NCBI GenBank assembly: GCA_020847555.1
Contig: JADLBT010000290.1
Coordinates: forward strand, 1-42,889
From: Gemmataceae bacterium
Lineage (GTDB): Bacteria; Planctomycetota; Planctomycetia; Gemmatales; Gemmataceae
Direction: 5' to 3'
Length of the DNA stretch: 42,889 bases
The first letter of the stretch is position 1. Every line of letters begins with the position of its first letter. A program made the position numbers and the translations under genes. Positions 21,839-42,889 of this stretch are shown here, in pieces. The notes beneath the pieces were generated by a model. That model was not told the origin of the DNA and made no database searches. It worked only from the letters and a program-made list of their open reading frames with translations.

Positions 21839-21852
21839 CTCGCCACCTGTCC

Positions 21853-21924
21853 AAGGCCCACGGATTGCGTCCCGTGGGGCAAGTCTCTGGTGACTTCGCC
21901 CACGGGACGCCACCCGTGGGCTTT
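21853..21924. repeat. Double-hairpin intergenic repeat, copy F
   Basis: Left arm CAAGGCCCACGGATTGCGTC then CCGTGGGGCAAGTC; right arm TTCGCCCACGGGACGCC then ACCCGTGGGCTTTG. It lies inside the operon between the aldehyde dehydrogenase stop and the BMC-P 2 start (tandem spacer). Confidence 0.88.
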
Positions 21925-21935
21925 GGCTCCAGCCC

Positions 21936-23366: not shown

Positions 23367-23394
23367 GGCTGTTTCCTGATTTCGGATTCCCGAT

Positions 23395-23461
23395 AAAGCC
23401 CACGGGTGGCGTCCCGCGGGCCTGCGAGCGCTTCACCCACGGGACGCAGCCCGTGGGCTTT
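23395..23461. repeat. Double-hairpin intergenic repeat, copy G
   Basis: Left arm AAAGCCCACGGGTGGCGTCC; right arm TTCACCCACGGGACGC ending GCCCGTGGGCTT. It fills the spacer between the BMC-P 3 stop (3 bases away) and the leader of the aldehyde dehydrogenase. Confidence 0.9.
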
Positions 23462-23464
23462 CAG

Positions 23465-23779
23465 TTATGGTTCGCGCGCGTTGAAGATGGTCCGGTTCTC
23501 GACGTTGACCGTGTCCACGATACCGATGATGGTCGCGTCCACCGGCAGCTTCTCCGTCTCCGGCGTCAGGCGGGCGCTCGACCCCTGGACGATCAGCACC
23601 AGCTCGCCCTGGCCGGCGCCGACGGTATCGACCACAACGAACGTCCGGCCCGTCGTCGCCAGCCGGTCGCGGTGCGCCGGGTCGATGCGCAGCGGTTCGA
23701 CGGTCAGCAGTTTGTGACCGATCATCGAGGCGACCTTCTGCGTCGCGACCACGCTGCCGGTGACTCGGGCCAGGAACAT
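23465..23779 (-). CDS. Pentameric shell protein (BMC-P, EutN/CcmL family) 3
   Basis: A 104-residue vertex shell protein. It begins MFLARVTGSVVATQKVASMI and continues GHKLLTVEPLRIDPAHRDRL, FVVVDTVGAGQGELVLIVQG and SSARLTPETEKLPVDATIIG, ending IVDTV, a complete EutN/CcmL pattern with the GAGxGexVLxxxGSSAR core. Start ATG 23779. It is downstream of the acetate-type kinase by 31 bases. The three pentamer genes differ enough in sequence to be non-redundant. Confidence 0.95.
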   Translation of the reverse strand: MFLARVTGSVVATQKVASMIGHKLLTVEPLRIDPAHRDRLATTGRTFVVVDTVGAGQGELVLIVQGSSARLTPETEKLPVDATIIGIVDTVNVENRTIFNAREP

Positions 23780-23810
23780 GATGGGTGCCCTCGATTCCGC
23801 CGCTTGCGGC

Positions 23811-24998
23811 CTATCTGGATTCCAGCAGTTCCTTCGCCTGCCGCGCCACGATCAACTCCTCGTTCGTCGGCATGATCCAGACCTGCACCCGGCTACCGAG
23901 CGCGTCGATGCGCGACTCCGGGACGCCCCGGACGTTCAACGCCGGATCCAGCGCGATCCCGAACCAGTCGAGGTTGGCGCAGATCCGCTCGCGCATCGCC
24001 GGAGAGTTCTCGCCGATGCCGCCGGTGAAGACGATGGCGTCGCACCCGCCCAGGTGGAGCAGGTACGCGCCCAGGTAGTGGCGCACGGACTCGGCGAAGA
24101 CGTCCAGCGCCAGCTTCGCCCGCTGGACGCCAGCGGCGGCCGCCGACTCGATGTCGCGCAGGTCGCGCCCGGCCCCGCTGATCCCTTCCAGCCCCGACCG
24201 ATTGGCCAGGTCGTCGAGCAGCGCTTCCAGCGTCTTGCCCGTCCGGCGCAGCAGCGCCGGCAGGGCGAAGGCATCGAAGTCGCCGACGCGGTTGTTGTGC
24301 GGCAGACCGCTCTGCGGGCTCATGCCGAGGCTGGTCGCGACCGACTTGCCGGCCCGGATGGCGCACAGCGAGCTGCTCCCGCCGAGGTGGCACGAGATCA
24401 CCCGAATCTGCCGGTTATGCAGTAGCTGGGCCATCCGCTCGGCGATGTAGCGATGGCTCGCCCCGTGGAAGCCCCACCGTTTAATGCCGTACTGCTCAGC
24501 CCACTCCAGCGGGACCGCGTACAGCCGTCGGGCCGGCGGGATCGTCTCGTGGAACCCGGTCTCGAACGCGGCCACCAGCGGCAGGGCCGGGAATTCCTTC
24601 GCGAGCAGCCGCATGGCAACGACGTATGGCGGGTTGTGGGCCGGGGCGACGTCGGCGTAGGCGTCCATCGCGGTCAGCACCTGGTCGCTCACCCGATGCA
24701 CGCCGGTCAGCCCCTCGGCGTGGACCGCCTTGAAGCCGATGGCGGCCAGTTCCGACGGATCCTTCAGGCACTTCATGCGCGGGTCGGACAGCTGCTGCAG
24801 GCACAGGCGGACGGCTGCCGCGTGGTCCGGCGCCGGCACCTGCGCGTCCTCCGAGACGCCGCCCGCGGAGACGTAGCAGCGCGCCCGCTCGGAGCCGATG
24901 CGCTCGACGCCGCCGCGCCCCAGCACGCGCTCGTCCGCCATGTCGAACAGGCGGTACTTGAAGCTGGTGCTGCCGAGATTCGCGACAAGGATCTTCAT
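23811..24998 (-). CDS. ackA: Acetate/propionate-type kinase
   Basis: A 395-residue acetokinase-family enzyme predicted to make ATP from the acyl phosphate produced by PduL. Motifs: MKILVANLGSTSFKYRLFDM (phosphate 1), VAAFETGFHETIPPARRLYA, RRWGFHGASHRYIAERM-type block (KRWGFHGASHRYIAERMAQL), RVISCHLGGSSSLCAIRAGK, MSPQSGLPHNNRVGDFDAFA, and DAIVFTGGIGENSPAMRERI near the C-terminus. It has no obvious encapsulation peptide. Directly before ATG 24998 lies a palindromic repeat and no Shine-Dalgarno is seen. In this pathway the substrate may be lactyl-phosphate rather than acetyl-phosphate; this is an inference from context. Confidence 0.94.
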   Translation of the reverse strand: MKILVANLGSTSFKYRLFDMADERVLGRGGVERIGSERARCYVSAGGVSEDAQVPAPDHAAAVRLCLQQLSDPRMKCLKDPSELAAIGFKAVHAEGLTGVHRVSDQVLTAMDAYADVAPAHNPPYVVAMRLLAKEFPALPLVAAFETGFHETIPPARRLYAVPLEWAEQYGIKRWGFHGASHRYIAERMAQLLHNRQIRVISCHLGGSSSLCAIRAGKSVATSLGMSPQSGLPHNNRVGDFDAFALPALLRRTGKTLEALLDDLANRSGLEGISGAGRDLRDIESAAAAGVQRAKLALDVFAESVRHYLGAYLLHLGGCDAIVFTGGIGENSPAMRERICANLDWFGIALDPALNVRGVPESRIDALGSRVQVWIMPTNEELIVARQAKELLESR

Positions 24999-25000
24999 GG

Positions 25001-25073
25001 TTTCAGCGGTCAGCTATCGGCGGTCGGCGGTCAGTTGCCAATCTTGCTGAAAGCTGACCGCCGACCGCTGAAA
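25001..25073. repeat. Palindromic repeat in the ackA leader
   Basis: Nested arms: TTTCAGCGG (25001-25009) with CCGCTGAAA (25065-25073), and GGTCGGCGGTCAG (25022-25034) with CTGACCGCCGACC (25054-25066). It begins two bases from the ackA start codon and 9 bases after the upstream shell-gene stop, so it is the whole leader. Confidence 0.75.
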
Positions 25074-25081
25074 GCGGCTTG

Positions 25082-25384
25082 CTACTTGCCCAGGAAGTTT
25101 TCCACGACATCCTCTTCCGGACGCGGGATGACGTGGGCGCTGACCAGTTCGCCGTACTGGCTGGCCGCGTGGGAACCGGCGTCCACCGCCGCCCGGACCG
25201 ACCCGACGTCGCCGCGAACGAAGGTCGTCACGAACGCCCCGCCGATCTGCACCTGGCCGGCCAGCGTCACGTTCGCCGCCTTGCACATCGCGTCGGTCGC
25301 GGCGATGGTCGCGATCAGCCCCTTCGTCTCGATCAGGCCGAGCGCCTCACCGTTACCGCCGTTTCTCGAATTGTTCGTCGCCAT
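25082..25384 (-). CDS. Hexameric shell protein (BMC-H) 2
   Basis: A 100-residue single-domain BMC-H protein (PF00936) that tiles the facets of the shell. After a short Asn-rich head it has EALGLIETKGLIATIAATDA, MCKAANVTLAGQVQIGGAFV and TTFVRGDVGSVRAAVDAGSH, ending SAHVIPRPEEDV. The GDVGSVRAAVDAG helix is canonical. The pore loop would be QIGGAF. Start ATG 25384 has GAGGAT upstream. It is 32 bases downstream of BMC-H 1 and about half identical to it by eye, so the pair probably arose by duplication. Confidence 0.96.
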   Translation of the reverse strand: MATNNSRNGGNGEALGLIETKGLIATIAATDAMCKAANVTLAGQVQIGGAFVTTFVRGDVGSVRAAVDAGSHAASQYGELVSAHVIPRPEEDVVENFLGK

Positions 25385-25416
25385 TGGGGATATCCTCAGT
25401 TCAAATAGATGTCTTC

Positions 25417-25728
25417 TCAGCCGACGCTCGCGGACTGCTTCTTCCCGGCCGTTGGCAGGACGGCGCCGAGATCCTCGTGCGGCCGCGGGATGACCTGCAC
25501 GCCGACGACCTCGCCGACACGCCCGGCCGCCGCGGCGCCGGCGTCGATCGCGGCCTTGACCGCGGCCACATCGCCGACGACCATCGCCGTCACCAGCCCG
25601 CTGCCGATCTTCTGCCACCCGATCAGCGTCACGTTCGCGGACTTTAGCATGGCGTCGCTCCCCTCAATGAGCGCCACCAGCCCCTTCGTCTCCAGAAGCC
25701 CGAGGGCTTCCATGTGTGAACCAGCCAT
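25417..25728 (-). CDS. Hexameric shell protein (BMC-H) 1
   Basis: A 103-residue BMC-H protein. Core: [60 protein letters not shown], and [20 protein letters not shown] near the end. The pore loop is KIGSGL. Two ATG codons stand together; the second (25728) has the better spacing to GGAGG. A 36-base hairpin-rich leader and a strong palindrome (25764-25810) separate it from pduL upstream, which could set shell-protein level apart from enzyme level. The C-terminal tail is slightly longer than in BMC-H 2. Confidence 0.96.
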
Positions 25729-25763
25729 CATTAACCTCCACGGGTCGAGGCCGCCGTCCGGGT

Positions 25764-25810
25764 CCGAAGCGTCAGCGCGGGTTGAGACTCGTCCCGCGCT
25801 GACGCTTCGG
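25764..25810. repeat. 18-bp-arm palindrome between pduL and the shell genes
   Basis: CCGAAGCGTCAGCGCGGG (25764-25781) is the exact reverse complement of 25793-25810, with an 11-base loop. The same AGCGTCAGCGCGGGTxGAGAC string recurs in decayed form at 34087-34130. In RNA it gives a very strong hairpin inside the operon. It may act as a partial terminator or an RNA-stabilising 5' structure for the hexamer genes. Confidence 0.8.
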
Positions 25811-25829
25811 GCTCGGATGACCGACCCCA

Positions 25830-26627
25830 CTACCTGAACAGTTCCACCCTGGTCGCGTGCGGCAGATCGGCCGCGTTGCCCTCGTCGGTGTCGAGGTGGA
25901 CCTCCAGTTTGGAGGCGGACGCCACCCGAACGAGCAGATCCTCGAGCACCGCCGCACAGGTGCTCCTGATTCGCAGGTTCAGTCGATCGCCGTCCCTGAC
26001 GCTGTAAAAGGCCGCGTCCGACGGGCCCATGTGGACGTGCCGCTCGTGGCGGATCACCCCGCGCGGCAGTTCGATCATCCCGGCCGGACCGAGCAGGTAA
26101 CAACCGGGCGAGTCGCGGTGGTCGCCGCTCTTGCGCACCGGCACGTCCAGGCCGAGCGAGATCGCGTCGGTGAACGCCAGTTCGACCTGGCTGTGGTCGC
26201 GGCACGGCCCGAGAATGCGCAGGTTCGGGATCAGCCGGTGCCGCGGACCGACGATCGTCACCGTCTCCGCCGCCGCGACGAACCCGTCCTGGTACAGCGG
26301 CTTGTGGACGGTCAGCCGGTGGCCCTTGCCGAACAGCCGCTCCAGGTCTTCCTGCGTGACGTGGCAGTGCCGGGCCGAGATGTTCACCACCAGCCGCGGG
26401 ATCCCCGCACCCCCCCGGCCCCCCTCCCCCACGAGGGAGGAGGGGGAAGCAGCAGACTGGAGGCGGCTCGGTGATGGTCCGGCGCCTGTGCCCGTCTCCC
26501 CCCTCTCCCCTCGTGGGAGAGAGGGGCCGGGGGGGCGAGAGGATCCCGCGCGTCCGTTGAGCCGTTCGGTCAACACCTGACGGACCAGCCGCTCCACCAG
26601 GACCCGGTCCAGCGTCCCCGTGCTCAT
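25830..26627 (-). CDS. pduL: PduL-type phosphate acyltransferase of the microcompartment
   Basis: A 265-residue zinc enzyme (PTAC, PF06130) that exchanges CoA for phosphate, predicted lactyl-CoA to lactyl-phosphate. Residues 7-22 ([16 protein letters not shown]) form the encapsulation helix. A linker at about 28-77 is Pro/Gly/Arg/Ser-rich and is encoded by a palindromic repeat. The catalytic part has [20 protein letters not shown] (His87, His89 zinc ligands), [40 protein letters not shown] and [20 protein letters not shown] (His194, 197, 199). Start ATG 26627 overlaps the DeoR stop (ATGA) and has GGAGGAG upstream. The linker makes it longer than typical PduL (about 210). Confidence 0.95.
26410..26536. 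repeat. Nested palindromic repeat inside the pduL linker
   Basis: The left arm (from 26410, CCCCCCCGGCCCCCCTCCCC then CACGAGGG) and the right arm (CCCTCGTGGGAGAGAGGGGC then CGGGGGGG, ending 26536) are near-exact reverse complements. Each arm is also a hairpin (CCCTC...GAGGG). Such CTCTCCCCTCGTGGGAGAG palindromes are usually intergenic. Here the element is in frame and codes for the enzyme's linker. Confidence 0.8.
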
Positions 26628-27421
26628 TGCCGAAACTCCTCCGCCGCCTGTCCGTTCGTGTGTTCGCCCGCGACCAGCAGGCGCACGTCCGCCTGCTCAA
26701 GCAACGCGCGCTGGTCCGGGGTCAGCTCGCCGTCCACGATCAGCGTGTCGATCGCCGACAGCTCGCACAAAAACGCCAGCGCCTGCCGGCCGATCTTGGT
26801 ATGGTCCGCGACAACCACGACCTCGTCGGCGCAGCGCATCATCTCACGCTCGGTTTCGACCAGCAGGAGGTTGCTGTTGAACAGCCCGCGAGCCGTCACC
26901 CCCCCGACGCTCATCACCGCCTGGTGGACGTGGACGTCGGGCAGCATGCGCGTCGTCAGCGGACCCAGCGCCACGCCCGTGCGCGGGTAGATGTACCCGC
27001 CGAGGAGGATCAGATCGGTCTCCCGGCTGCTGGCGAACAGGTTGGCGATGGGCAGACTGTTGGTAACGATCTGCAGCGGCCGGCCGACCAGCAGGCGGGC
27101 AACCTCGAGCGTGGTCGTACCGCCGTCGAGCAGGATGGCGTCGCCGTCACGGACCCGCGCCGCCGCGGCGCGGGCGATCGCGCGCTTCTCGTCGATCTGC
27201 CGCGCTACCCGTTCCTCCAGGGCCGGCAGAACCCCCTCCTCGTTCAGGTAAACCGCGCCGCCGCGGGTCCGCCGGATCGCCCCGCGGTGGTCGAGGTAAT
27301 CGAGGTCGCGCCGCAGAGTCGATTCTGACACCTGGATCGCCTGCGCCAGTTCGGCCAGGGAGGCAAATCCTTGCCTGCTGATCAGGTCCAGCACCCGCTG
27401 GCGACGTTCCTCGACGAGCAC
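26624..27421 (-). CDS. DeoR/GlpR family transcriptional regulator of the microcompartment operon
   Basis: A 265-residue regulator. An N-terminal winged helix (1-57) with [20 protein letters not shown] and the recognition helix [20 protein letters not shown] is followed by the sugar-phosphate-sensing DeoRC domain: [53 protein letters not shown] and [20 protein letters not shown]. It starts at GTG 27421 and is the first gene of the operon, coupled to pduL by ATGA. As DeoR proteins are typically repressors relieved by a phosphorylated sugar, the likely inducer is fuculose-1-P, rhamnulose-1-P or a related product. It is probably autoregulated through the operator-like repeat in its leader. Confidence 0.94.
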
Positions 27422-32878: not shown

Positions 32879-34033
32879 ATGTCATACTACCGTCCCCCCA
32901 CCGCGCCGCCCCGCCATTCGCTCGCGTCGTTCATCTTGCCCGTCCTGGTGCTGGTGGCGATCGCCCTCGTACTTGTCTGGCGCTTCTGGCCAGCCGACGA
33001 CAGCAGCATCAACCCCAATGCCGAACTGCGATCCATCAGCCCCGGCGGTAAACTGGCCGACGCCGAGAACGCCGCTATCGAGCTGTACAGGAACGCCGCC
33101 CCATCCGTCGTGAACGTCGCCAACCTCGCTCTCCTGCGCGACCGCTTCACCCTCAGCATCCGGCAGCTGGAGAAGGGGGTCGGGACCGGGCTCATCTGGG
33201 ACAAGCAGGGCCACATTGTCACCAACTACCACGTCATCCAGGGTGCGCAGGCGGTGCGCGTCACTCTGGCGAACCGTAAGGCCCTGCCCGCGAAGGTGGT
33301 GGCGTCCGACCCGAACATGGACCTGGCGGTGCTGTGGATCAAGGCCGACCCGGGCCAGCTGCAGCCCATCCCGCTCGGCGAGTCGAGCAAGCTCAAGGTC
33401 GGGCAGTGGGCGTTCGCGATCGGCAACCCGTTCGGGCTGGACCATTCGCTCGCGCCCGGGTTCGTCAGTGCCCTGGGACGCGAGATCGAGTCGGTTGGCG
33501 GCCGGCCGATCAAGAGCGTCATTCAGACGACGGCCCCGATCAACCCGGGCAACTCGGGCGGCCCGCTCCTGGACAGCTCCGGCCGACTGATCGGCGTGAA
33601 CACCGCCATCCTCAGTCCGTCCGGGGCGTGGGCCGGCATCGGCTTCGCCATCCCGGCGGACGACGTCAACCGGGTGGTAACGCACCTGATCCGCAAGGGG
33701 TGGAAGGGGCAGACAGCGTCGGCCGGGCTGGGGATCGAGGAGGTGCCCGACCAGGTCGCCCAGGGATGGGGTCTGACGCGGGGCGTGATGATCCTCAACG
33801 TCGTGCCCGAGGGGGCGGCGGCCAGGGCCGGGCTGCAGCCGACGCGCCGGACCGAGGAGGGCGTGCTCGCCGGGGACGTGATCCTGCAGATCGACGACAC
33901 CCCGATCAACACGAGCAAGGATCTGCACCGGGCGCTGGCGCGATACCGGCCCGGGGACCAGGTGACGCTGACCGTTTGGCGGAACGGGGAGAGGTTCCGG
34001 GTCCAGGCAACGCTGCAGGAAGCGACCCGGTGA
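32879..34033 (+). CDS. HtrA/DegP-type trypsin-like serine protease with one PDZ domain
   Basis: A 384-residue membrane-anchored periplasmic protease and quality-control factor. One N-terminal membrane helix (about 15-36, LASFILPVLVLVAIALVLVW) is followed by the protease domain with the full triad: His118 (HIVTNYHVIQG), Asp148 (ASDPNMDLAVLWI) and Ser226 (TTAPINPGNSGGPLLDSSGR). A single PDZ domain spans about 270-380 (GVMILNVVPEGAAARAGL, GDVILQIDDTPINTSKDLHR). Start ATG 32879 has CGGAGAG upstream. The single PDZ domain and the membrane anchor fit the DegS-like layout. Confidence 0.95.
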   Translation: MSYYRPPTAPPRHSLASFILPVLVLVAIALVLVWRFWPADDSSINPNAELRSISPGGKLADAENAAIELYRNAAPSVVNVANLALLRDRFTLSIRQLEKGVGTGLIWDKQGHIVTNYHVIQGAQAVRVTLANRKALPAKVVASDPNMDLAVLWIKADPGQLQPIPLGESSKLKVGQWAFAIGNPFGLDHSLAPGFVSALGREIESVGGRPIKSVIQTTAPINPGNSGGPLLDSSGRLIGVNTAILSPSGAWAGIGFAIPADDVNRVVTHLIRKGWKGQTASAGLGIEEVPDQVAQGWGLTRGVMILNVVPEGAAARAGLQPTRRTEEGVLAGDVILQIDDTPINTSKDLHRALARYRPGDQVTLTVWRNGERFRVQATLQEATR

Positions 34034-34086
34034 GCGGCGGCCGACGCGGCGATGATCCGGGCAGTGACAATGGGCTGTCCAAACCC

Positions 34087-34130
34087 GCAGCGTCAGCGCG
34101 GGTGGAGACAAGCACCCTTGTTGACGCTGC
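34087..34130. repeat. Decayed second copy of the AGCGTCAGCGCGGG palindrome
   Basis: GCAGCGTCA (34087-34095) pairs with TGACGCTGC (34122-34130), and an inner stem GGGTG/CACCC is possible. The shared string AGCGTCAGCGCGGGTxGAGAC ties it to the palindrome at 25764-25810. It lies between the htrA stop and a PDZ relic. Confidence 0.6.
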
Positions 34131-34337
34131 AGGTTGGTCCGTCGGCACCTCGGTCAGGCGAGCGGTGAAGGTCTTCGTTTCGTCTCCATGCTTGCTCTTC
34201 AGTTGCAACTCCTTGCCGGTCCCGGTCGCCTCCACAACCTCCCCCAGCGCCTCGTGGGTGGCGATTTCCTTGCTGCCCACCTTCAGAAGGATGTCGCCGT
34301 GCTTCAACCCGGCCTGCGCCGCCGGCCCGGACACGGA
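34131..34337 (-). pseudogene. PDZ-domain relic
   Basis: On the minus strand, VSGPAAQAGLKHGDILLKVG followed by SKEIATHEALGEVVEATGTG, KELQLKSKHGDETKTFTARL and TEVPTDQP matches the second half of a PDZ domain as found in secreted planctomycete proteases. The beginning of the domain and any catalytic domain are missing, and the flanks are repeat sequence. It is opposite in strand to the neighbouring htrA and does not look copied from its PDZ domain. It fills most of the 485-base space between htrA and the CDF gene. Confidence 0.55.
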
Positions 34338-34518
34338 GCGCCGCGAACGGTTGCAGGAGGTGCGGTCCGCGGGGCGCAGACCGAATCGCGGCACTCCACT
34401 TGCGGCTGGAAGAATCGACGGTGCAACGCCCATGTCAGGGCGTCCCGCAGCCCTGGCGCAGTGGCGGACTGGAGGAGGAGTGGGCCGGGCAGTAGCATGG
34501 ACGGAGGAGGAGAAGGGC

Positions 34519-35490
34519 ATGACGGCAAACCATCACCCGAACGACCATCAGGAGTCCCACGGACCCTCCGGGCACCGGCACGGCCGCCGCGGAACCGAGG
34601 GCAGTCGGCTGGCGTTCATTCTCGTGCTGGTCGTCGGCTACATGATCGCGGAGGTGGTCGGCGGACTGCTGACGAACTCGCTGGCCCTGCTGGCCGACGC
34701 CGGGCACATGCTCTCCGACGCGGCGGCGCTGGGACTGAGCCTGTTCGCCCTGTGGGTGGCGCGCCGGCCGCCGACCCCGCAGCGCACTTACGGCTACTAC
34801 CGGGCCGAGGTGCTGGCGGCCCTCGCCAACGGCGCGTCCCTGATCGCCATCTCGATCTACATCTTCGTCGAGGCCGCGTGGCGCCTGAGAGAACCGCCGG
34901 AAGTCCTCGGCGCCGGCATGGCGACGGTGGCGCTGGGCGGACTGGTCGTCAACCTGGTCGGCCTGTGGCTGCTCGGCGGCCACCACGTGGACAACCTGAA
35001 CGTCCGGGCGGCGTGGCTGCACCTGTTCGCCGACATGCTCGGGAGCGTGGCCGCCCTCGTGGCGGCTGGCCTGGTGTGGGCGCTCGGCTGGAACTGGGCC
35101 GACCCGGTCGCGTCGGCGGTGATCGGCCTCCTCGTCGTCCGGTCCGCGTGGGAACTGCTGAAGCAGGCAGTCGCTATCCTGATGGAGGGCGCGCCCGGGC
35201 ACATGGACGTGGACGCGGTCCGCGATGCGCTGGCCGGACTGCCGGGAGTGCGTGAGGTCCACGACCTGCACGTCTGGTCGATCACCACCGGGCTGGAGGC
35301 GCTGTCGGCCCATCTGGTCGTGGGCGCCGAATGCCCCGGCCCGCCGCTGCTGCACCAGGCGCGCGACACGCTGCGCGAGCGGTTTGGGATTGGCCACGTC
35401 ACCCTGCAGATCGAGCCGGAAGCGTTCCACGAGGGGCACACCCCGTTTTGCAATCCCGGGCTACCGGCGGCCGCCGGCCCGAATCCCTGA
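34519..35490 (+). CDS. Cation diffusion facilitator (CzcD/ZitB-type zinc or cobalt exporter)
   Basis: A 323-residue inner-membrane metal/proton antiporter. A His-rich N-terminus (HHPNDHQESHGPSGHRHGRR) precedes six membrane helices. Helix 2 has SLALLADAGHMLSDAAALGL with the H/D metal site, and helix 5 has AWLHLFADMLGSVAALVAAG with the matching HxxxD. A His pair in the loop between helices 4 and 5 (LGGHHVDNLN) is typical of CzcD-like members. The cytoplasmic C-terminal domain is GVREVHDLHVWSITTGLEAL, VSAHLVV-like and ERFGIGHVTLQIEP. Start ATG 34519 has GGAGGAGAAGGG upstream. It is followed by an S41 peptidase gene after 19 bases, so the two are probably co-transcribed. Confidence 0.95.
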   Translation: MTANHHPNDHQESHGPSGHRHGRRGTEGSRLAFILVLVVGYMIAEVVGGLLTNSLALLADAGHMLSDAAALGLSLFALWVARRPPTPQRTYGYYRAEVLAALANGASLIAISIYIFVEAAWRLREPPEVLGAGMATVALGGLVVNLVGLWLLGGHHVDNLNVRAAWLHLFADMLGSVAALVAAGLVWALGWNWADPVASAVIGLLVVRSAWELLKQAVAILMEGAPGHMDVDAVRDALAGLPGVREVHDLHVWSITTGLEALSAHLVVGAECPGPPLLHQARDTLRERFGIGHVTLQIEPEAFHEGHTPFCNPGLPAAAGPNP

Positions 35491-35509
35491 CGTCCTCTGA
35501 GGAACCACC

Positions 35510-36754
35510 ATGAACGGAGAACAGACCCCGTGGGGTCGGTCGCTCGGCATCGTCGTGCTGCTGGTGGGCGCGTTCGCCGCGGGCGGGATGGCGGAGCGCC
35601 TCGGCCTCTTGCCCGGCAGCGCCAGTGAGCCCGCTGACGCCGAGGCGGTCTTCAAGCCGTTCTGGCAGGCGTGGCGTCTGGCTCGCCATTCCTACGTCGA
35701 GCGGGATGCGGCCGATCCGATCAAGATGACACGCGGGGCGATCCGCGGCATGCTCGCCTCGCTCGGAGACGTCGGTCACACCGGCTACCTCAGCCCGGAG
35801 GAGTACCGCGAACTCAAAGAGGGGCTGGAGGGCGAGTTCGAGGGCATCGGCGCCCACGTGACGATGCGCCAGAGGCGGCCGACCATCATGCAGGTCATTC
35901 CCGATTCGCCGGCCCAGGAGGCGGGCCTGAAAGCGGGCGACGTGATCCTGGAGGTGGACGGTAAGTCCGTCGCCGACCTGCCGCTCGAACGGGTCGTGCA
36001 GAAGGTGCGCGGCCCGGCCGGCACCCAGGTCAAGCTCCTCATCGCCCGCGAGGGGGTGTCGAAGGCGCTGACGGTCCCGATCACGCGCCGCCGGGTGGAC
36101 CTGCCGAGCGTGACGTGGCAGCGCCTGGAAGGCAAACCCATCGGCCACGTCGCCATCCGCACCTTCGGGCGCCAGGCGGACGAGCAGCTGCGCGCCGCCG
36201 TGGAGCAACTTCGCCAGCGGGGGGTAAAGGGGCTGATCCTCGATCTGCGCGGCAACCCGGGCGGGCTGAAGGAGCAGGCGGTGGCCGTCTCCAGCGAGTT
36301 CCTCAAGAGCGGCAACGTCTTCCTGGAACAGGACGCCGAGGGCAACCGGACGCCGGTCCCGGTCCGTCCGGGCGGGACGATCACGGATCTGCCGCTGATC
36401 GTGCTGATCGACGAGGGGACGGCCAGCTCGGCGGAGATCCTCGCCGGCGCCATCCAGGATCACAAGCGCGGCCAACTGGTGGGGACACGCACCTTCGGCA
36501 CCGGCACCGTACTCCAGCCATTCCGCCTGAGCGACGGGTCGGCGGTCCTGCTGGCCGTCCGGCAGTGGCTGACGCCCAACGGGCGGAAGATCTGGCACGA
36601 GGGGATCACGCCCGACGTCGTGGTTCCGCTGCCGGAGAACGCCACCGTCCTGCTGCCGGTGAATGGCGGCGAACTGAGCGCGGCCGCGCTGGCCCGGAGC
36701 GACGACGCGCAGTTCCGCAAGGCGCTGGAGATTCTCGAAGCCCAGCTGCGTTGA
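35510..36754 (+). CDS. S41 C-terminal processing peptidase homologue lacking the catalytic lysine
   Basis: A 414-residue CtpA/Prc relative. An N-terminal membrane anchor (LGIVVLLVGAFAAGGMAERL) is followed by a short helical cap, a PDZ domain at about 105-195 (GIGAHVTMRQRRPTIMQVIP, QEAGLKAGDVILEVDGKSVA), and the S41 core with GLILDLRGNPGGLKEQAVAV and LIDEGTASSAEILAGAIQDH (nucleophile Ser306). In the segment that normally reads TFGKGxVQ with the catalytic Lys, it has VGTRTFGTGTVLQPFRL, so Lys is replaced by Thr331. LLAVRQWLTPNGRKIWHEGI follows. It may use another base, be a regulatory non-protease, or belong to a variant subfamily. It is coupled to the metal exporter upstream. Confidence 0.9.
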   Translation: MNGEQTPWGRSLGIVVLLVGAFAAGGMAERLGLLPGSASEPADAEAVFKPFWQAWRLARHSYVERDAADPIKMTRGAIRGMLASLGDVGHTGYLSPEEYRELKEGLEGEFEGIGAHVTMRQRRPTIMQVIPDSPAQEAGLKAGDVILEVDGKSVADLPLERVVQKVRGPAGTQVKLLIAREGVSKALTVPITRRRVDLPSVTWQRLEGKPIGHVAIRTFGRQADEQLRAAVEQLRQRGVKGLILDLRGNPGGLKEQAVAVSSEFLKSGNVFLEQDAEGNRTPVPVRPGGTITDLPLIVLIDEGTASSAEILAGAIQDHKRGQLVGTRTFGTGTVLQPFRLSDGSAVLLAVRQWLTPNGRKIWHEGITPDVVVPLPENATVLLPVNGGELSAAALARSDDAQFRKALEILEAQLR

Positions 36755-36766
36755 CGGCCGCGCCTC

Positions 36767-36795
36767 AAGGCCCACGGAGCGTCGCCCGTGGACCC
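36767..36795. repeat. Decayed single-hairpin repeat, copy J
   Basis: TCAAGGCCCACGGAGCG followed by TCGCCCGTGGACC, a worn copy of the single-hairpin form, between the stops of the convergent S41 gene and fhcC. The remaining 65 bases to 36861 show nothing else. Confidence 0.6.
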
Positions 36796-36861
36796 AGATT
36801 AAGACCGGGGGACGACTTCGGCAGAAGGCACGGGAAAGGTCAGCGAAGGGGATGAACGCGC

Positions 36862-37695
36862 TCAGGTCGATGCCTGGGCGCTGTGCTGCTGCCAGACGAG
36901 GATCTCCCCCTTCCCAGGAACCGAGGTGTCGCCGGTGTAACGCCGGTACGCCCCCTCTCGTGGCGACGTGGGGATGGCGAACCCAGACGACTGGAGAGAT
37001 CCGGCATAGAGATTCAGGAACACCGGGTTGTACGTGCAGGCGTAGGAGAAGGTCGGCAGCAGCCGGAGCGGCGTCAGGGAGACGATCGTCCCGCGGACCA
37101 TCCACGCGCCCGTGCGGATCTCCGCTCCCCCCAGCAGAGCAATGGTCCCCCCCTTCCTCTGCAGGCCGGCGAAGTCCCGGACCGGCCCCTTGATCGCGAT
37201 GACCCCGCGGCGCATGCGCATTCCGATCTCGATGCCCGCCGAGCCTTCCACCAGGACCGTCCCCCCCTTCATCCCGGTCAAGCTCCCCCGGTAGGCCGCT
37301 CCGATCTGTCCGCCGGCGTTGCCGCGGACGCGGATGAGGCCGTCCTTCATCTCGGCGCCGACCCAGTCCGAGGCGTTGCCCACAACCTCGATCGCCCCGC
37401 CCTTCATGTAGGCTCCGAGGTGCATGCCGGCGTTACCGTCCACCGTGATTCGCCCCCGGGTCATTCCCCGCCCGATCCACTTGACCCGGCCCGCATCCCC
37501 GCGGATGAGTAACTCCTCACTGCCGTCGCCTTCCACCGCGAAGAAGTCGTCCAGCCGCAGCTGCCGCTTGCCCAGGAAGACGGGCAGGGCTCGTACTTGC
37601 TCGTGCCGCAGCGGCGCGACCACGTCCGGCGAGAGAACCTCGGCTTCCAGCGGGACGTGCGGGCGTTCCTTGAGAGTGAGGCGTATAGGGGTCAT
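36862..37695 (-). CDS. fhcC: Formylmethanofuran dehydrogenase / formyltransferase-hydrolase complex subunit C
   Basis: A 277-residue subunit with a long parallel beta-helix built from GxxxGxxMxxGxIxxxGxxG repeats: GMTRGRITVDGNAGMHLGAY, MKGGAIEVVGNASDWVGAEM, KDGLIRVRGNAGGQIGAAYR, MKGGTVLVEGSAGIEIGMRM, RRGVIAIKGPVRDFAGLQRK and ending GTIVSLTPLRLLPTFSYACT. This matches FwdC/FhcC, which scaffolds the complex. It starts at ATG 37695 overlapping the fhcA stop (ATGA), and is the last gene of the operon. Confidence 0.95.
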   Translation of the reverse strand: MTPIRLTLKERPHVPLEAEVLSPDVVAPLRHEQVRALPVFLGKRQLRLDDFFAVEGDGSEELLIRGDAGRVKWIGRGMTRGRITVDGNAGMHLGAYMKGGAIEVVGNASDWVGAEMKDGLIRVRGNAGGQIGAAYRGSLTGMKGGTVLVEGSAGIEIGMRMRRGVIAIKGPVRDFAGLQRKGGTIALLGGAEIRTGAWMVRGTIVSLTPLRLLPTFSYACTYNPVFLNLYAGSLQSSGFAIPTSPREGAYRRYTGDTSVPGKGEILVWQQHSAQAST

Positions 37696-39344
37696 GGGTT
37701 CGGTGATTTGCAGGGGCGGACGTCCGCGTGCTCGATGCGGTCCATCTCCACCGGGTAGTTGTCGAAGGACATCGTGTAATATTGCTGGAACAGGGGCCGG
37801 ATGTAGTCCGCCACCTTCTCGTCGTAGGTTGGCCGCACGAGCAAGCCCCTGCCCGCGACGATGTGGCGAATCTCGCCCTCCTCGATGACCACCTCGCCCC
37901 CCTTGATGACGTAGCGCGGGTAGGCGAACATCCGGGCCGCGTCCCGGTCCTCGTTGAAGATCGCCACGTCCGCGTCGGCGCCGACGCCGAGGTGCCCCTT
38001 CTGCGACAGCCCCAGCGCCCGCGCCGGCCCGGCCGAGGTGATGATGGCGATCTCGGACAGGGTGTACTCGCGGTCCAGCTCGGGCAGGATAATCCGCTTC
38101 AGTGCCTTCGGAGTCAGCGCTCCGAGCTGTTCCTTGCGGAAGTCGGCGTCCATCAGCAGCCGGATGATCTCGGGGTAGCGCCAGAAGGCCGCGCCGTTGG
38201 GGTGGTCGGTGGTGAGGTAGATACGCCAGGGGTCGTTGATGAGCAGCAGTAATTCCAGCCCGGTGGCCCACTGCACGGCGTTGACGAGGTTCTTCTCCTT
38301 GTAGGCGTAGGGGACGATGCCGCAGCCGGTTTCGTTCTCAACATCGAGGTTGCCCCACTTCCTGCCGGTGAGCTTGTGGAGCAGGTGCTGCCAGGGGCCG
38401 TCGGCCGTGATGGTCACGGTGTCGCCGAAGAGGACGGCGCCGGCGTCGGTCGTGAGATTCCGGCGGGCGTTGAACTCCTCGGCGATCTTGACCGACTCCG
38501 AGCGCATGGTGAACCAGTCATCCCCGCCGTAAGCGTGGTACTGCAGGTGCGCCAGGTGCGCCCGGTTGCCCTCCAGGAGCTTCATCGTCTCCAGGGTGGT
38601 CGTGAAGTTCCCCGGAGCGCCAAGGTTGTTGCAGTGCAGGTGGAGCGGGTGGGGCAGGCCCAGCTCGTCCACGATGTCGGCGAGGGCGGAGATAATCGTG
38701 CGGGGCGTGACCTTGCTGTAGCCGGGGATCGGATCGTTGAGGCCCTTGGCGTCCTTGCCCCACTTCCACGCCGTCACGCCGCCGGGGTTGACAGCCTTGA
38801 CCCCATACGCCTTGGCCGCCCAGATGTTCCAGGCAGCGACGTGGCGGGCGCGCTCCAACTCGCCGGCCTCCAGCAGGTCGAGCAGGATCTCGTTGTTGGC
38901 CATCAGGACGCAGCAGGCCTTGTCAACGATGGGCGTGTCGCGCAGCTCCTCGTGCGTGTGCCGCGCCGACAGGATCGGGACGGCGGCCTCGTTGACCGTC
39001 GTGTATCCGAGGCCGGCGTAGAGGTAGCCGGTCACGAAGGTCGTCGGCGTCGAGCCGCCGATGCCACCGCGGCGGATCTGAGTGCGGACGAACGGGGTGT
39101 TCCGGCGGTGGTCCTCCGGGATCATGGCCCGGGCGAAGTTGAGGGCGGCGCCGGCGACGTGCGTGTGGACGTCCACGCCGCCGGGGAAGACCACCATGCC
39201 CGTCGCGTCGAGGGTGCGGCCCCCCTCGACCGCGGCGACGATGCGACCGTCGGCGACGCAGACATCTCTGACTGCACCAGCGACGCCGTTGGCGGGGTCG
39301 TACACCTTCCCGCCCACGATCCGCAGCACCGAGTTCGCGCTCAA
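37692..39344 (-). CDS. fhcA: Formylmethanofuran dehydrogenase / hydrolase subunit A (zinc amidohydrolase)
   Basis: A 550-residue amidohydrolase-fold subunit that interconverts formate and the N-formyl group on methanofuran-type cofactors at a binuclear metal site. Metal-binding features: FPGGVDVHTHVAG (His60, His62), YGVKAVNPGGVTAWKWGK with the likely carbamylated Lys, HPLHLHCNNLGAPGNFTTTL, HLQYHAYGGDD and YLTTDHPNGAAFWRYPEII with the catalytic Asp. The start is TTG 39344, chosen because GGAGAGGAGG lies 5-6 bases upstream and the first strand (VLRIVGGKVYDP) begins 5 codons later. The frame is open far upstream but overlaps fhcB in another frame. It is 26 bases after fhcB. Confidence 0.95.
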   Translation of the reverse strand: MSANSVLRIVGGKVYDPANGVAGAVRDVCVADGRIVAAVEGGRTLDATGMVVFPGGVDVHTHVAGAALNFARAMIPEDHRRNTPFVRTQIRRGGIGGSTPTTFVTGYLYAGLGYTTVNEAAVPILSARHTHEELRDTPIVDKACCVLMANNEILLDLLEAGELERARHVAAWNIWAAKAYGVKAVNPGGVTAWKWGKDAKGLNDPIPGYSKVTPRTIISALADIVDELGLPHPLHLHCNNLGAPGNFTTTLETMKLLEGNRAHLAHLQYHAYGGDDWFTMRSESVKIAEEFNARRNLTTDAGAVLFGDTVTITADGPWQHLLHKLTGRKWGNLDVENETGCGIVPYAYKEKNLVNAVQWATGLELLLLINDPWRIYLTTDHPNGAAFWRYPEIIRLLMDADFRKEQLGALTPKALKRIILPELDREYTLSEIAIITSAGPARALGLSQKGHLGVGADADVAIFNEDRDAARMFAYPRYVIKGGEVVIEEGEIRHIVAGRGLLVRPTYDEKVADYIRPLFQQYYTMSFDNYPVEMDRIEHADVRPCKSPNP

Positions 39345-39370
39345 CCCGTCCTCCTCTCCCCCGCCGGTGG

Positions 39371-40702
39371 TCAGCCCGCCGCCAGCTTCGTCAGCGCTGG
39401 CACCGGCAGAGGCGGCTTCGCCGCGACCGCCGCGCGGATACGGCGGACAATCTCCTCGTCGGTGGGATAGGGCGACTTCAGGGCCGGACGCAGCGGCAGC
39501 GGGATCTCGTCCATGCGGTAGACAGTGCCGGGAGCACTGATGCCCGTGGCGGCCGTGGTGAAATGGACGCGGGCCAGCCGGCTGGTGTGCGTGACCTTGG
39601 GGTCGAGTACGATCGTCGGGATGCGGGCGAGGTGGTCGATGGCCGGTTGCGGCATGGTCGCCCCCGGGTCGGCGCCGAGGACGAGGGCGGCGTCGCAATC
39701 TCCGCGGATGAGCAAGTCGATGGTCGAGAATTCGCCCGGGTTGAAGCGGGGGTAGCCACGCGCCAGGTTGACGCCGAACGGGTAGCCCGTGCTCCAGCGC
39801 ATGATAACGTCGCCGCCAGTCACGTTGCCGTGGCCGCGCATCGGCATGGCCACGAACTTCGTGAAGGCGTTCAGCTCCGCCGCCAGCGTCAGCACGGCTG
39901 CCGAGTTCATGTGCTTGCCGCGCGTCATCGACAGGCCCATGCCGAAGAACAATACCCCGAACTTGCAACTCTTCAGGCGCTCGGCAAAGTCCCGCAACTG
40001 CTCCATGCTCAGCCCGGTCTGTGCCGCCAGCGCCTCATCGACCGGCTGGCCCTTGATGAGGGCGCGGAGCGTCGTGACAATCTCGAAGTCCTTGCCGGGT
40101 CGGACCTGGAGGAAGATGTCGGCGGCCTTGGCGCTGGGAGTTTCGCGGATGTCCACGAGGATCATGGTGCGGTCCTTGCGGCCGCGCGGCACGAACTTGC
40201 CCTTCTGCGTCAGGGTGTACTTGGTGAAGTGCCGCGGGTGGCACTCCGCCGGGTTGCCGCCCCAGTAGACGATCAGGTCGGCCCGGTTCTTGACCTCGCC
40301 GAGCGTGCAGGACACCTTGCCGCCCAACTGGGCGGCGATCTCCGTGGGGCCGTGTCAGAGCGAGGTGTGGCTGTCGATCACCCCGCCGATCAGTTCGGCC
40401 AGGGAGACCGCCTCGCGCTGGGCCTCGCAGGTGATGTTGCTCAGCCCGTAGACCAGGGGCAGGTCGGCCTTGTAGAGGTAGTCGGCCGCGGCCTCGACGG
40501 CCTCATCCACGGTGGCGGGCCGGCCGGCGATGAGGGCATCGGGGTAGAGTCGCTCCGCGGTGTGATTCTTGAACCAGCTGACGCCGAGGACGCAGGCGGC
40601 CTTGGTGTGGGTGATGCGTTCGCCGTCAGCGTGCAACTCGATGTCGTCGCAGACGCACCCACAGAACGTGCAGGTGGCGTTCTTCACAACGGTCAGTTCC
40701 AT
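39371..40702 (-). CDS. fhcB: Formylmethanofuran dehydrogenase subunit B with in-frame UGA (selenocysteine)
   Basis: A 443-residue protein if UGA at 40355-40357 is read as Sec. It is the molybdopterin-type catalytic subunit family (FwdB/FmdB/FhcB). N-terminus: NATCTFCGCVCDDIELHADG has the [4Fe-4S] motif, and KAACVLGVSWFKNHTAERLY follows. The active site reads GGVIDSHTSL-UGA-HGPTEIAAQ, with UGA (codon 116) replacing the Cys or Sec that binds W/Mo in FwdB, next to His117-Gly-Pro. The same frame continues without break through LIVYWGGNPAECHPRHF, RPGKDFEIVTTLRALI, FFGMGLSMTRGKHMNSAAVL and ALVLGADPGATMP to 39371. Start ATG 40702 has GAGGCGAGG upstream. A SECIS-like hairpin follows the UGA. A nonsense mutation is the alternative, but the site and intact frame argue against it. 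Confidence 0.82.
40319..40357 (-). promoter_or_regulatory. Candidate bacterial SECIS element of fhcB
   Basis: Downstream of the in-frame UGA (40355-40357) the mRNA reads UGACACGGCCCC..., then a perfect 7-bp stem GCCGCCC-AGUU-GGGCGGC (40319-40336). The loop starts 25 nt after the UGA and has G as its second base. A further GACAC/GUGUC pairing just outside (40352-40356 with 40311-40315) could close the element. The start UGACACGGCCC is the same as in E. coli fdhF, because both encode U-H-G-P. Confidence 0.65.
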
Positions 40703-40757
40703 CCTCGCCTCTTCAACGAAGGATCTGCCCGTCCGAACCGGACGGAACGGTGAACGT

Positions 40758-40925
40758 TCAGCCAAGGGCGCGGCCTTTGAAGCTGCCCCGAATGCGGCGC
40801 GGCATGTACCGGCCGGCCCCGACCTGCTCCCAGGCGAGCACTTTCTCCTCCACGGCTTCGCCGGTGAACTGCGCTGCGGTCCGATCTGCTCGTTCATCCC
40901 CGACACGGCGTTCTTCGGATTCCAT
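40758..40925 (-). CDS. Small protein in the formylmethanofuran dehydrogenase operon
   Basis: A 55-residue frame starts MESEERRVGDERADRTAAQF and ends RYMPRRIRGSFKGRALG. It has an excellent ribosome site (GGAGGAGAGACGCG before ATG 40925). It lies 31 bases after the FwdD-like gene and 55 bases before fhcB, on the same strand. Charged N-terminal half, short basic C-terminus, no Cys or membrane segment. It is shorter than common ORF cut-offs. No family is recognised. Position suggests an accessory for assembly or an extra small subunit. Confidence 0.65.
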   Translation of the reverse strand: MESEERRVGDERADRTAAQFTGEAVEEKVLAWEQVGAGRYMPRRIRGSFKGRALG

Positions 40926-40956
40926 CGCGTCTCTCCTCCGGTCGGTACTCCAGAAC

Positions 40957-41322
40957 TCACGTCGTGGACCCGCTGGTCGTGTCCGCCACCGGCTCGACTT
41001 CCACCTCCCACCCCTTGGAAGTGGGCATCCCCGTGCCGTCGGTCTCCATGCCCATGAGGCGGCAGGTCGGCGGGCCGTAGGGGACGAAGATCATGCCGCG
41101 GGGCACGTTCCCCGCCTGGCAGCGGAAGGTCGCCTCACCGCCGTACTCGGAACGGACCCGGACCGTCCCGCCGGTGGGGACGCTCAGTTCCCTCAGGTCG
41201 TCCGCGTTCATCGTCAGGGTGCCGACGATGGCCTGGTAGTTGTCGTCGTCCTTGCCGATGTTGATCTGCTGGCCCTGCTTGCTGGTGCGGCCCGCGTTCA
41301 TGATGAAGCGCCTGCCCGCCAT
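40957..41322 (-). CDS. FwdD-like molybdopterin-dinucleotide-binding subunit
   Basis: A 121-residue protein starting at ATG 41322 with GGGGAGGATCA upstream. It is a beta-barrel like the C-terminal molydopterin dinucleotide-binding domain of FwdD/FmdD: RFIMNAGRTSKQGQQINIGK, DDDNYQAIVGTLTMNADDLR, ELSVPTGGTVRVRSEYGGEA, AGNVPRGMIFVPYGPPTCRL and MGMETDGTGMPTSKGWEVEV. It is first in the operon with the small protein, fhcB, fhcA and fhcC. In FwdD the domain completes the Mo/W-pterin site with FwdB. Its presence argues that this complex holds a metal cofactor. Confidence 0.88.
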   Translation of the reverse strand: MAGRRFIMNAGRTSKQGQQINIGKDDDNYQAIVGTLTMNADDLRELSVPTGGTVRVRSEYGGEATFRCQAGNVPRGMIFVPYGPPTCRLMGMETDGTGMPTSKGWEVEVEPVADTTSGSTT

Positions 41323-41398
41323 TGATCCTCCCCGCGTTCGCGACGTGCAGACCCACCCCCAGCGATGCGGCAAACGGCATGGCTGTGCGGCTTGCTTG

Positions 41399-41427
41399 AT
41401 TGTACCATCAGGGGTACTTACCAGCAA
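41399..41427 (-). promoter_or_regulatory. Promoter of the formylmethanofuran dehydrogenase operon
   Basis: On the minus strand TTGCTG (41422-41427), a 17-base spacer and TACAAT (41399-41404), 76 bases before the FwdD-like start. It fits a sigma-70 promoter and is the only good match in the 120-base spacer. Confidence 0.55.
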
Positions 41428-41442
41428 GAATCGGCCACCCTC

Positions 41443-42423
41443 TCAAGGGACGCCCTCGCGGTCGTCGTTCCGCCAGCCGGCCTTCTCCAGCCGCGCGAAC
41501 GCGCTGCGGACCTCGGCGCCCTCGTGGAACGCGAGTACCCCGCGCAGGCGGCGCGTCTGCCCAGGCGTGCAGTCGGGGAATTTCGGGTCGGCGTGCAGGC
41601 AAGGGCATTTTGCGTTGCCCCAGGTGCTGTGGCAGTGCTGCCAGGCGGTGATCACCCAGCGCCGCCCATCGCGTGAGCGGCAGGCAGCGTACGGCGCCGC
41701 GAACACCTTGTTGTCGTCCACCTGGGCCTCGAAGCCGCGCGCGTGGCCGAGCAGCACGCAGTTCTGCACGCGCAGGTCCGTCAGCCGCTGCTTCGTGCCG
41801 TTGGTCAGCGTCAGTTCGAGGCGAACCAGTTGCGGCGTCGGCGCGATGCGGGCGCAGAACGCGATCCCGTTGGGCAGTTTCCGCTCCAGGTCGAGGGTAC
41901 CGTCGGCGCGGCGGTTCCACTCCAGTTTCTCCATCGCCAGACCCTGTTTGTCCCAGATGGTGGGGATGTGCGTGTGCGCCAGGTAGGTCAGGCCCAGATC
42001 GGACCAGATGGCCTCGGGCAGATCGACGACGACATGGCCGCCCTCGTCCCACGGCGGGAAAACGCTGACCTTCGCCTCGCGCTGCGGCCGGATGGCCCCC
42101 TCAAGAAAGCCGAGCCGGGGATGCCGCCCGCCCGGGTACGGCAGCACCAGCAGCGGCGCGCCCGCGGCACGCTTCGGCCGCCCCGCTGGCGTGATGCCGA
42201 ACCGCTTCAGGGCTGCCGTCGCCTCGCCCGCGCTCAGCCCGGTGGCGGCGGAAATCTCGGCGACGGTGAAGCGGTGATGCCAGACCATGTTCTCCAGCCA
42301 GTAGCGCAGCTCGGCGTCGTTGGCCGGGCGCCGCGCCTCGGGGGTGCCGGGCGGAGTCGGCTGCCCGTCGGCGGACGACGTCAGCAGGGAGAGCAACACG
42401 ACGAATGCCGGAAGCAGCCGCAT
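41443..42423 (-). CDS. Secreted DUF6807-like hypothetical protein
   Basis: A 326-residue protein with a signal peptide (MRLLPAFVVLLSLLTSSADG). A short helix-turn-like region (WHHRFTVAEISAATGLSAGE) precedes a beta-rich body: LLVLPYPGGRHPRLGFLEGA, PQREAKVSVFPPWDEGGHVV, LTYLAHTHIPTIWDKQGLAM, LELTLTNGTKQRLTDLRVQN, VLLGHARGF and a Cys-containing CHSTWGNAKCPCLHADPKFP segment. The body has the look of planctomycete secreted carbohydrate-related beta proteins. The family name is tentative. The start ATG 42423 is chosen for the signal peptide; an upstream in-frame codon at 42495 adds an Arg-rich head. Confidence 0.65.
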   Translation of the reverse strand: MRLLPAFVVLLSLLTSSADGQPTPPGTPEARRPANDAELRYWLENMVWHHRFTVAEISAATGLSAGEATAALKRFGITPAGRPKRAAGAPLLVLPYPGGRHPRLGFLEGAIRPQREAKVSVFPPWDEGGHVVVDLPEAIWSDLGLTYLAHTHIPTIWDKQGLAMEKLEWNRRADGTLDLERKLPNGIAFCARIAPTPQLVRLELTLTNGTKQRLTDLRVQNCVLLGHARGFEAQVDDNKVFAAPYAACRSRDGRRWVITAWQHCHSTWGNAKCPCLHADPKFPDCTPGQTRRLRGVLAFHEGAEVRSAFARLEKAGWRNDDREGVP

Positions 42424-42573
42424 GGGAATGACCCTCGCTCGCCGGAGGTGGAAGCCCCGCCCGGCCAGTGTAGCCAGAGGAGCGGTGCGGGGCACCCTTC
42501 TCGCTCGAGTCGCGGGGCGTATGGTGGAACAACAGGCGACTGCTCAGGGTGGACGATGGGGAGCGAGGACGAC

Positions 42574-42705
42574 ATGCGACGGCTGATCTTTCTCGGCGGC
42601 AACGGGCACTGCGCGGCGCGACTGGCCCTGGCACGTCTCATCGCCGAGGGGATGATAGCCCTATTTAACCTCTTCGAAGCACCTTATCCAGGCGGGGACC
42701 GCGGC
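42574..42705 (+). pseudogene. N-terminal relic of an alpha/beta hydrolase-like gene
   Basis: From ATG 42574 the frame reads MRRLIFLGGNGHCAARLALA, then RLIAEGMIALFNLFEAPYPG, the start of an alpha/beta hydrolase (strand, GNGH oxyanion-type turn, then the xFxVPYPGxxGR segment). After PYPG the frame reads into the end of the minus-strand membrane protein gene and stops at 42778-42780, giving only 68 codons. The remaining hydrolase sequence including the nucleophile is missing, so this is a truncated remnant. Confidence 0.5.
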
Positions 42706-42707
42706 AC

Positions 42708-42889
42708 TCACTCGCGCATGTACCACGGCTCGCGCGGCGGCTGGCGCTTGCGCGGGGCCGCCTCCACGAAGGCGGTGTAGCCGATCACCGCCAGCGAACC
42801 GATCGCCACGTGGACCGGATAGACGTCGGAAAGGTCCGAGACGGTCATGGCAAGGCCACAGCCGAGCGCCGCGTACACGACCCGGGTCG
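42708..42889 (-). CDS. C-terminal part of a small membrane protein
   Basis: A minus-strand frame entering from the right edge reads TRVVYAALGCGLAMTVSDLS, DVYPVHVAIGSLAVIGYTAF, then VEAAPRKRQPPREPWYMRE and a stop at 42708-42710. It has about two membrane segments and a basic, soluble tail. The start is outside the window and the family cannot be named. Confidence 0.6.
   Translation of the reverse strand, partial: TRVVYAALGCGLAMTVSDLSDVYPVHVAIGSLAVIGYTAFVEAAPRKRQPPREPWYMRE

Follow-up and report, generated by a model that had tools for sequence, protein, structure and literature searches.

A predicted selenocysteine codon in the fwdB gene of a Gemmataceae bacterium and in its relatives from at least one further bacterial phylum

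The closest described counterpart of the gene considered here is fmdB of the planctomycete P2 (Rhodopirellula), which was reported in 2016 as a selenoprotein encoded in an fmdD-B-A-C operon (PMC4807772). In the available text of that report, P2 holds both selenocysteine (Sec) and cysteine forms, marked U or C on a tree, homologues with glycine are mentioned for three other planctomycetes, and a Sec form of FwdB is cited for Methanopyrus kandleri. The same portion of the text contains neither an analysis of a selenocysteine insertion sequence (SECIS) in the gene nor a survey of it. In the present work, a stretch of 42,889 nucleotides (hereafter the window) from contig JADLBT010000290.1 of a Gemmataceae bacterium was analysed, the minus strand of which carries the same gene as P2, with the same Sec call and the same operon. 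The original prediction, made from the DNA letters of the window, had proposed this gene as a candidate bacterial selenoprotein and had left undecided whether it had been described earlier; one description exists, that of PMC4807772, and it covers one planctomycete. No broader account of bacterial Sec-containing FwdB was found in the literature searched, the coverage of which leaves out most subscription papers. To the 2016 report, the present work adds a wider range of genomes, a defined SECIS, occurrence in a second phylum, and the separation of the gene from degenerate Fhc-like paralogues.

Three other systems are informative for comparison. Archaeal FwdB/FmdB (PDB 5t5i, 8rja and 7bkb) shares with the window locus the subunits D, B, A and C, the Cys/Sec-His pair, the Arg-Gly-His motif and the 4Fe-4S cysteines, while the window gene differs in belonging to a bacterial branch, in having an in-gene SECIS of bacterial type and in showing no ferredoxin-type gene at its locus. 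FhcB (PDB 6s6y, which we take to be from Methylorubrum extorquens) is the homologous subunit of a related one-carbon (C1) complex, and its similarity to the window protein is weak (52.9 bits). As far as the consulted part of PMC10100899 goes, FhcB is a scaffold lacking the Mo/W-bis(pyranopterin guanine dinucleotide) cofactor. The Sec-containing formate dehydrogenases FdnG and FdhF of E. coli display a related fold and a Cys/Sec metal ligand (weak matches to 1kqf and 1aa6), but they form a different complex and act on formate, not on a carrier-bound formyl group. A 2026 review, in the portion available, treats FwdB for methanogenic archaea.

The gene, fwdB/fmdB (formylmethanofuran dehydrogenase subunit B, positions 39371..40702, minus strand), was translated from the ATG at 40702 to the final stop at 39371, which gave a frame of 443 codons with a single internal stop. 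The latter is a TGA (40355..40357, read from 40357 to 40355) at residue 116 in the context TSL*HGPTEIA, where the asterisk denotes the stop. A profile search with NCBIfam TIGR03129 matched residues 8-424 with 497.3 bits (cut-off 327.8), hence family sequence is present on either side of the TGA. The PDB chains 8rja_B, 5t5i_B, 9sw6_J and 7bkb_H have Cys at this column, 9sfi_Q has a non-standard residue (X), and in the alignment the TGA-CAC of the window gene falls on the Cys-His pair found in 5t5i, 8rja and 7bkb, His being residue 117. The original prediction was thus correct in describing one frame interrupted by a lone TGA, located at the Mo/W-ligand position ahead of His-Gly-Pro and flanked by family sequence. 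The protein also keeps the PMRGHGN motif with its Arg and the N-terminal 4Fe-4S cysteines. In FwdB proteins, the Arg of PMRGH and the N-terminal cysteines take part in cofactor binding.

Relatives were collected by scanning a one-genome-per-species collection, from which the best 80 of 158 were kept (74-87% identity). The codon at the Sec column is TGA in all 80 kept relatives, never TAA or TAG, and their aligned frames contain one stop each. A single stop within a frame commonly indicates a pseudogene or a sequencing error, and either could in principle affect this contig; since the 80 kept relatives all carry TGA there, the TGA is no sequencing error, a read-level error at 40355-40357 is ruled out, and this decisive observation leaves both explanations with a practically negligible probability. 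They are further opposed by a 314-aa database protein (P0007) identical to the post-TGA part and found on two contigs, the longest of 96,229 bases, although this protein could come from a second assembly made of that population. In a planctomycete sample of 292 genomes from the phylum of genome G004 (locus L004, Planctomycetota), seven places at 75-87% identity were all TGA, three of them being already among the 80. A second sample comprised 297 genomes from the phylum of the genome of L021 (titled Acidobacteria). It is taken to be another phylum because it has no genome in common with the planctomycete sample; a further sample, drawn around G329, shares many with the latter. Fourteen genomes of the second sample gave a match, consisting of six TGA copies (70-82% identity, one of which, L185, is L021's own gene and belongs to the 80), four Cys copies (53-57%) and four distant ones. 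The comparison of homologues proposed at the outset therefore yielded TGA in all close homologues that were read, and Cys in the class next to them. A tblastn search against plasmids returned 102 records, every one below 60% identity.

Downstream of the TGA, bases 40336-40319 fold as GCCGCCC-AGUU-GGGCGGC, an 18-base hairpin (40319..40336, minus strand) with a 7-bp stem, an AGUU loop and 25 nt from TGA to loop; the fold energy is -22.9 kcal/mol for 50 nt. The rules for bacterial SECIS elements, as given in the consulted part of PMC13188914, are a stem of 4-16 bp, a loop of 3-9 nt with a G within its first two positions, a spacing of 16-37 nt and a minimum free energy of at most -7.5. The hairpin agrees with all of these rules (7 bp, AGUU, 25 nt, -22.9 kcal/mol). 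Codon usage was compared over 225 columns with degenerate amino acids that are at least 95% identical among 81 sequences. Codons 125 and 126 (CAG and TTG, the TTG in 81/81) were the only invariant ones, between four and six codons being in use at every one of the remaining 17 conserved Leu columns. Both Ala 123 and Ala 124 are encoded by GCY in 81/81 sequences, as compared to a GCY share of 29-81% at the 20 remaining Ala columns, and synonymous entropy is lowest at codons 123-128 among 185 windows of the alignment. The stem cells are paired in 98.5% of cases, versus 29-57% when the template is slid along the alignment.

Within the TGA class, all seven pairs form in 73 sequences and six of seven in the other eight. 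One relative, L036, has replaced a C-G pair by U-A at the cost of a Gly to Ser change, a single event. In the other phylum, L186 and L187, the hairpin sequences of which are identical, show Ala to Val and Leu to Val changes and still form 7/7 pairs with an AGGU loop, while L188 pairs 6/7. By the same template, only two to six of seven pairs were obtained for 15 planctomycete Cys copies (7/7 of class 2 and 8/9 of class 3, the classes being defined below) and one to three for the four Cys copies of the other phylum.

The hairpin also bears on the way the gene is stored in databases. Among the 120 best database proteins, 103 are 310-325 aa long, and 71 (318-319 aa) start at the Leu TTG (40327) of the hairpin loop. 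Splitting by open reading frame (ORF) calling, anticipated in the original prediction, is indeed what happens: the invariant TTG of the SECIS loop is the start that gene callers use for a 318-319-aa 'subunit B'. These 71 fragments and the invariance of the TTG in 81/81 sequences could also be taken as a sign of two genes, the first stopping at the TGA after 115 aa and the second restarting 30 nt downstream at TTG to give 318 aa. Such a break would however hit the metal ligand in every species and would always use TGA (80/80), never TAA or TAG; moreover, the TTG sits in the hairpin loop next to an invariant CAG and pairing-limited neighbours, and the sel genes co-occur with the supposedly split gene (see below). 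Two separate genes are for these reasons considered highly improbable. One 417-aa database protein (P0001, 77% identity) lacks a stretch from the Sec codon onward, possibly an annotation artefact or a real deletion, and was set aside.

The selenocysteine machinery was searched in 50 of the 80 TGA genomes (L001-L050, most of them draft metagenome-assembled genomes), counting matches over curated cut-offs and, for selC, matches with E <= 1e-10. As comparison set, selA, selB and selC were searched in 30 genomes from the planctomycete sample in which the gene takes other forms. In the TGA genomes selA was detected in 45/50, selB in 46/50 and selC in 42/50, against 4/30, 3/30 and 3/30, respectively, in the comparison set, where a fifth selA (G292) is in two pieces and below the cut-off; selD was found in 47/50 TGA genomes. 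All 28 selC loci read by ARAGORN were tRNA-SeC with anticodon tca. Among the first four TGA genomes three have a tRNA-Sec; the best match in G001, which is outside the 42 selC-positive genomes, was a tRNA-Ser according to ARAGORN and was rejected. Of the 48 selD places above the cut-off in the relatives, 18 contain a single in-frame TGA (for example G004:C121:5904-6833), suggesting that the selenophosphate synthetase of those relatives is probably itself a selenoprotein. We infer that the machinery is also present in the window's own genome; no tRNA gene was detected by ARAGORN in the window, and selC is accordingly not located there.

Reassignment of UGA to Trp or Cys, or plain readthrough, would formally yield the same open frame. 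Nevertheless, each gene has one in-frame TGA, at this column only, the relatives carry tRNA-Sec, SelA and SelB, and their SelD shows a single in-frame TGA at the 18 places mentioned above, so that another decoding of the codon has very little probability. The proposal of Sec at the Mo/W-ligand position is supported by the TGA in 80/80 relatives and by sel genes being commoner in TGA genomes than in others. The best explanation is that the gene makes an intact Sec-containing subunit B with UGA 116 decoded as selenocysteine, which we regard as very probable; selenium would consequently be incorporated at residue 116.

The name of the gene deserves attention, as it had initially been labelled fhcB. 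In the window the gene order is fwdD-fwdB-fwdA-fwdC, all partner subunits being adjacent. Upstream on the same strand is fwdD, coding for the molybdopterin-dinucleotide-binding subunit (40957..41322, minus strand), which was matched by PF01568 with 38.5 bits (cut-off 26.8) and by NF042908 with 83.4 bits, below the cut-off of 175; its start was set at the ATG where the similarity to relatives begins. Downstream, fwdA (amidohydrolase subunit, 37692..39323, minus strand) was identified with TIGR03121 at 689 bits and fwdC (36862..37701, minus strand) with TIGR03122 at 265 bits, both with approximate starts. TGA loci were considered testable when more than 900 bases precede the gene; in 74/74 of these, FwdD is encoded upstream on the same strand, at a distance of up to 1.5 kb in 70 and of up to 1.8 kb in the others. 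This contradicts the statement, in the available part of an opinion article (PMC5020050), that fwdD is not present in Planctomycetes. FwdA lies within 3 kb downstream in 62/72 TGA loci and FwdC within 4.5 kb in 58/70. An FhcB would be expected to have lost the metal ligand and FwdD; here the ligand codon is TGA in 80/80 and FwdD is found at 74/74 testable loci. Because the catalytic residues are retained and fwdD is upstream on the same strand, the gene is better called fwdB/fmdB than fhcB. The latter label was imprecise, given that the operon is of Fwd/Fmd type with intact catalytic residues and does not correspond to the cofactor-less Fhc complex.

The planctomycete sample contained 46 places above 100 bits, of which 37 were read at the Sec column (7, 7, 15 and 8 of classes 1 to 4), eight distant ones and the partial G073 being left out. 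Class 1 is TGA in 7/7 and class 2 is Cys in 7/7, both with PMRGHGN. Class 3 (n=15) has Cys in nine, Gly in five and Ser in one, with RRxR..GD in 14 copies and GMRGFGD in one. In class 4, where 8 of 16 places were read, the loop is deleted in five and another residue is present in three, the residue of L126 (G292) being alignment-dependent. Classes 3 and 4 have lost the RGH motif and FwdD, and some copies also the ligand. FwdD adjoins 4/7 Cys copies of class 2; with E <= 1e-4 it was found beside 0/15 class-3 and 0/4 class-4 copies searched, the FwdD near the class-3 copy L130 belonging to a neighbouring TGA copy. The Gly homologues in the available text of PMC4807772 look like class-3 paralogues. 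A class-3 copy also occurs in 2/7 TGA genomes (G216 and G238) and in 5/7 class-2 genomes. In both G216 (L130) and G238, a Sec copy coexists with an FwdB-like copy of class 3 that has no fwdD of its own close by, the two copies being about 9 kb apart in G216. G190 was rejected as a Sec copy: it shows one TGA, but its column codon is GGT.

A tree was built from 61 chosen rows after removal of the trait column; its four rows of archaeal outgroup sequences are approximate owing to small sequence slips. The 57 bacterial rows were split from the four archaeal ones with 100/100 support. Class 1 forms one clade (89/97), nested in a 100/100 clade of 23 that also includes one protein with Cys, five with Ser and four with Thr; the Cys clades fall outside of it, and classes 3 and 4 group apart on a branch of their own with 100/99 support, in which long class-4 branches meet and the placement of class 4 is unsure. 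Sec may be ancestral within the clade of 23 or may have been gained once, as the branching inside this clade allows either. Homologues with neither Cys nor Sec, which the original prediction had regarded as potentially refuting, do exist as distant paralogues and as Ser/Thr relatives, but they sit on other branches of the tree.

In 120 database proteins of at least 390 aa, the column residue is Thr in 102, Cys in 10, Ser in five, and Gly, Asn and Tyr in one each; these were drawn from P0001-P0223, picked by two queries of which one is a Thr form, and hence represent no census, and the Tyr (P0001) lies at a gap. RD replaces the RG of RGH in 12 of the 15 Thr forms that reach at least 63% identity, and one protein is named Acidobacteriota. 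Genomic DNA of Ser/Thr homologues was not found in the samples of the two phyla.

Several observations weigh against the reading of the gene as a selenoprotein with a redox function. The case for Sec is built on sequence comparison. Regarding the hairpin, covariation proper is weak, with one double change matched by 33/500 shuffles; the single-sequence fold is only two standard deviations better than shuffles; the Cys copy L132 pairs 6/7 by the same template; and the window gave no Rfam match at the gathering score, and so no SECIS family (with E up to 10, four unrelated families appeared at chance level). Regarding the machinery, selA, selB, selC and selD fell below the cut-off in 5, 4, 8 and 3 of the 50 TGA genomes, which is likely due to the incompleteness of draft genomes; selA, selB and selC also occur in a few of the 30 genomes without the TGA form (4, 3 and 3); the co-occurrence of sel genes and TGA is partly shared ancestry; and the sel counts refer to relatives of the window's organism. 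Finally, a ferredoxin-type gene is absent from the clusters common to at least 10 loci (ORFs of at least 80 aa). When ORFs down to 40 aa were considered, the motif CxxCxxCxxxC was found nowhere in window positions 34001-42889 and near the operon in 3/53 testable loci, without conservation.

The lack of a conserved electron-transfer gene at the locus would fit a selenoprotein that is redox-silent, namely an Fhc-type formyltransferase/hydrolase scaffold merely retaining Sec, and in the available part of PMC5020050 planctomycete C1 genes are often treated together with the formyltransferase/hydrolase complex. This is judged very unlikely, as every copy read combines the Sec codon with His117, the PMRGHGN arginine, the cysteines for the 4Fe-4S cluster and FwdD, while it is the paralogues of classes 3 and 4 that lose the RGH motif and FwdD and, for some, the ligand. 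A redox enzyme handling the formyl group and CO2 is favoured by the catalytic residues and 4Fe-4S cysteines as well as by FwdD. The formaldehyde-activating enzyme (Fae) was found over the cut-off in 37/39 TGA genomes searched (39 of the 50), and this co-occurrence suggests a role at the end of formaldehyde oxidation. The formyltransferase Ftr is encoded in 34/80 TGA loci and is not found in the window.

For a Sec-containing, redox-active subunit B, the following mechanism is proposed. UGA 116 of the formylmethanofuran(-like) dehydrogenase subunit B would be decoded as selenocysteine, the in-gene AGUU hairpin 25 nt downstream recruiting SelB with Sec-tRNA(Sec). Selenium would then serve as a ligand of Mo or W in a bis-pyranopterin cofactor that FwdB and FwdD bind together. 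The complex with FwdA and FwdC would most likely end the tetrahydromethanopterin (H4MPT)/methanofuran formaldehyde pathway by interconverting the formyl group and CO2, and electrons would exit via the [4Fe-4S] cluster of FwdB to an acceptor. The nature of the metal, the direction in which the reaction runs and the electron acceptor are what we infer in this scheme.

Elsewhere in the window, the region 19253-27421 encodes a class II aldolase, an acylating-type aldehyde dehydrogenase, an EutN/CcmL shell protein, a member of the acetate kinase family, a phosphate propanoyltransferase and a DeoR regulator, and is likely a bacterial-microcompartment locus.

As 103 of the 120 best database matches give the catalytic C1 subunit in truncated form, the C1 metabolism of the phylum is easily misread. 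It is tentatively proposed, with somewhat less than even confidence, that in Planctomycetota and at least one other bacterial phylum H4MPT-linked formaldehyde oxidation ends in a redox-active step carried out by a formylmethanofuran dehydrogenase that depends on selenium and Mo/W. This enzyme would differ from the redox-silent Fhc complex, and its nearest relatives would have replaced the Sec/Cys ligand by Ser or Thr. If redox-active, the enzyme would represent an archaeal-type formyl/CO2 step in bacteria and would link one-carbon metabolism to a need for selenium. Within one phylum there are versions with Sec, Cys, Gly or Ser and others in which the ligand is deleted, a natural series that bears on how a redox enzyme turns into a scaffold.
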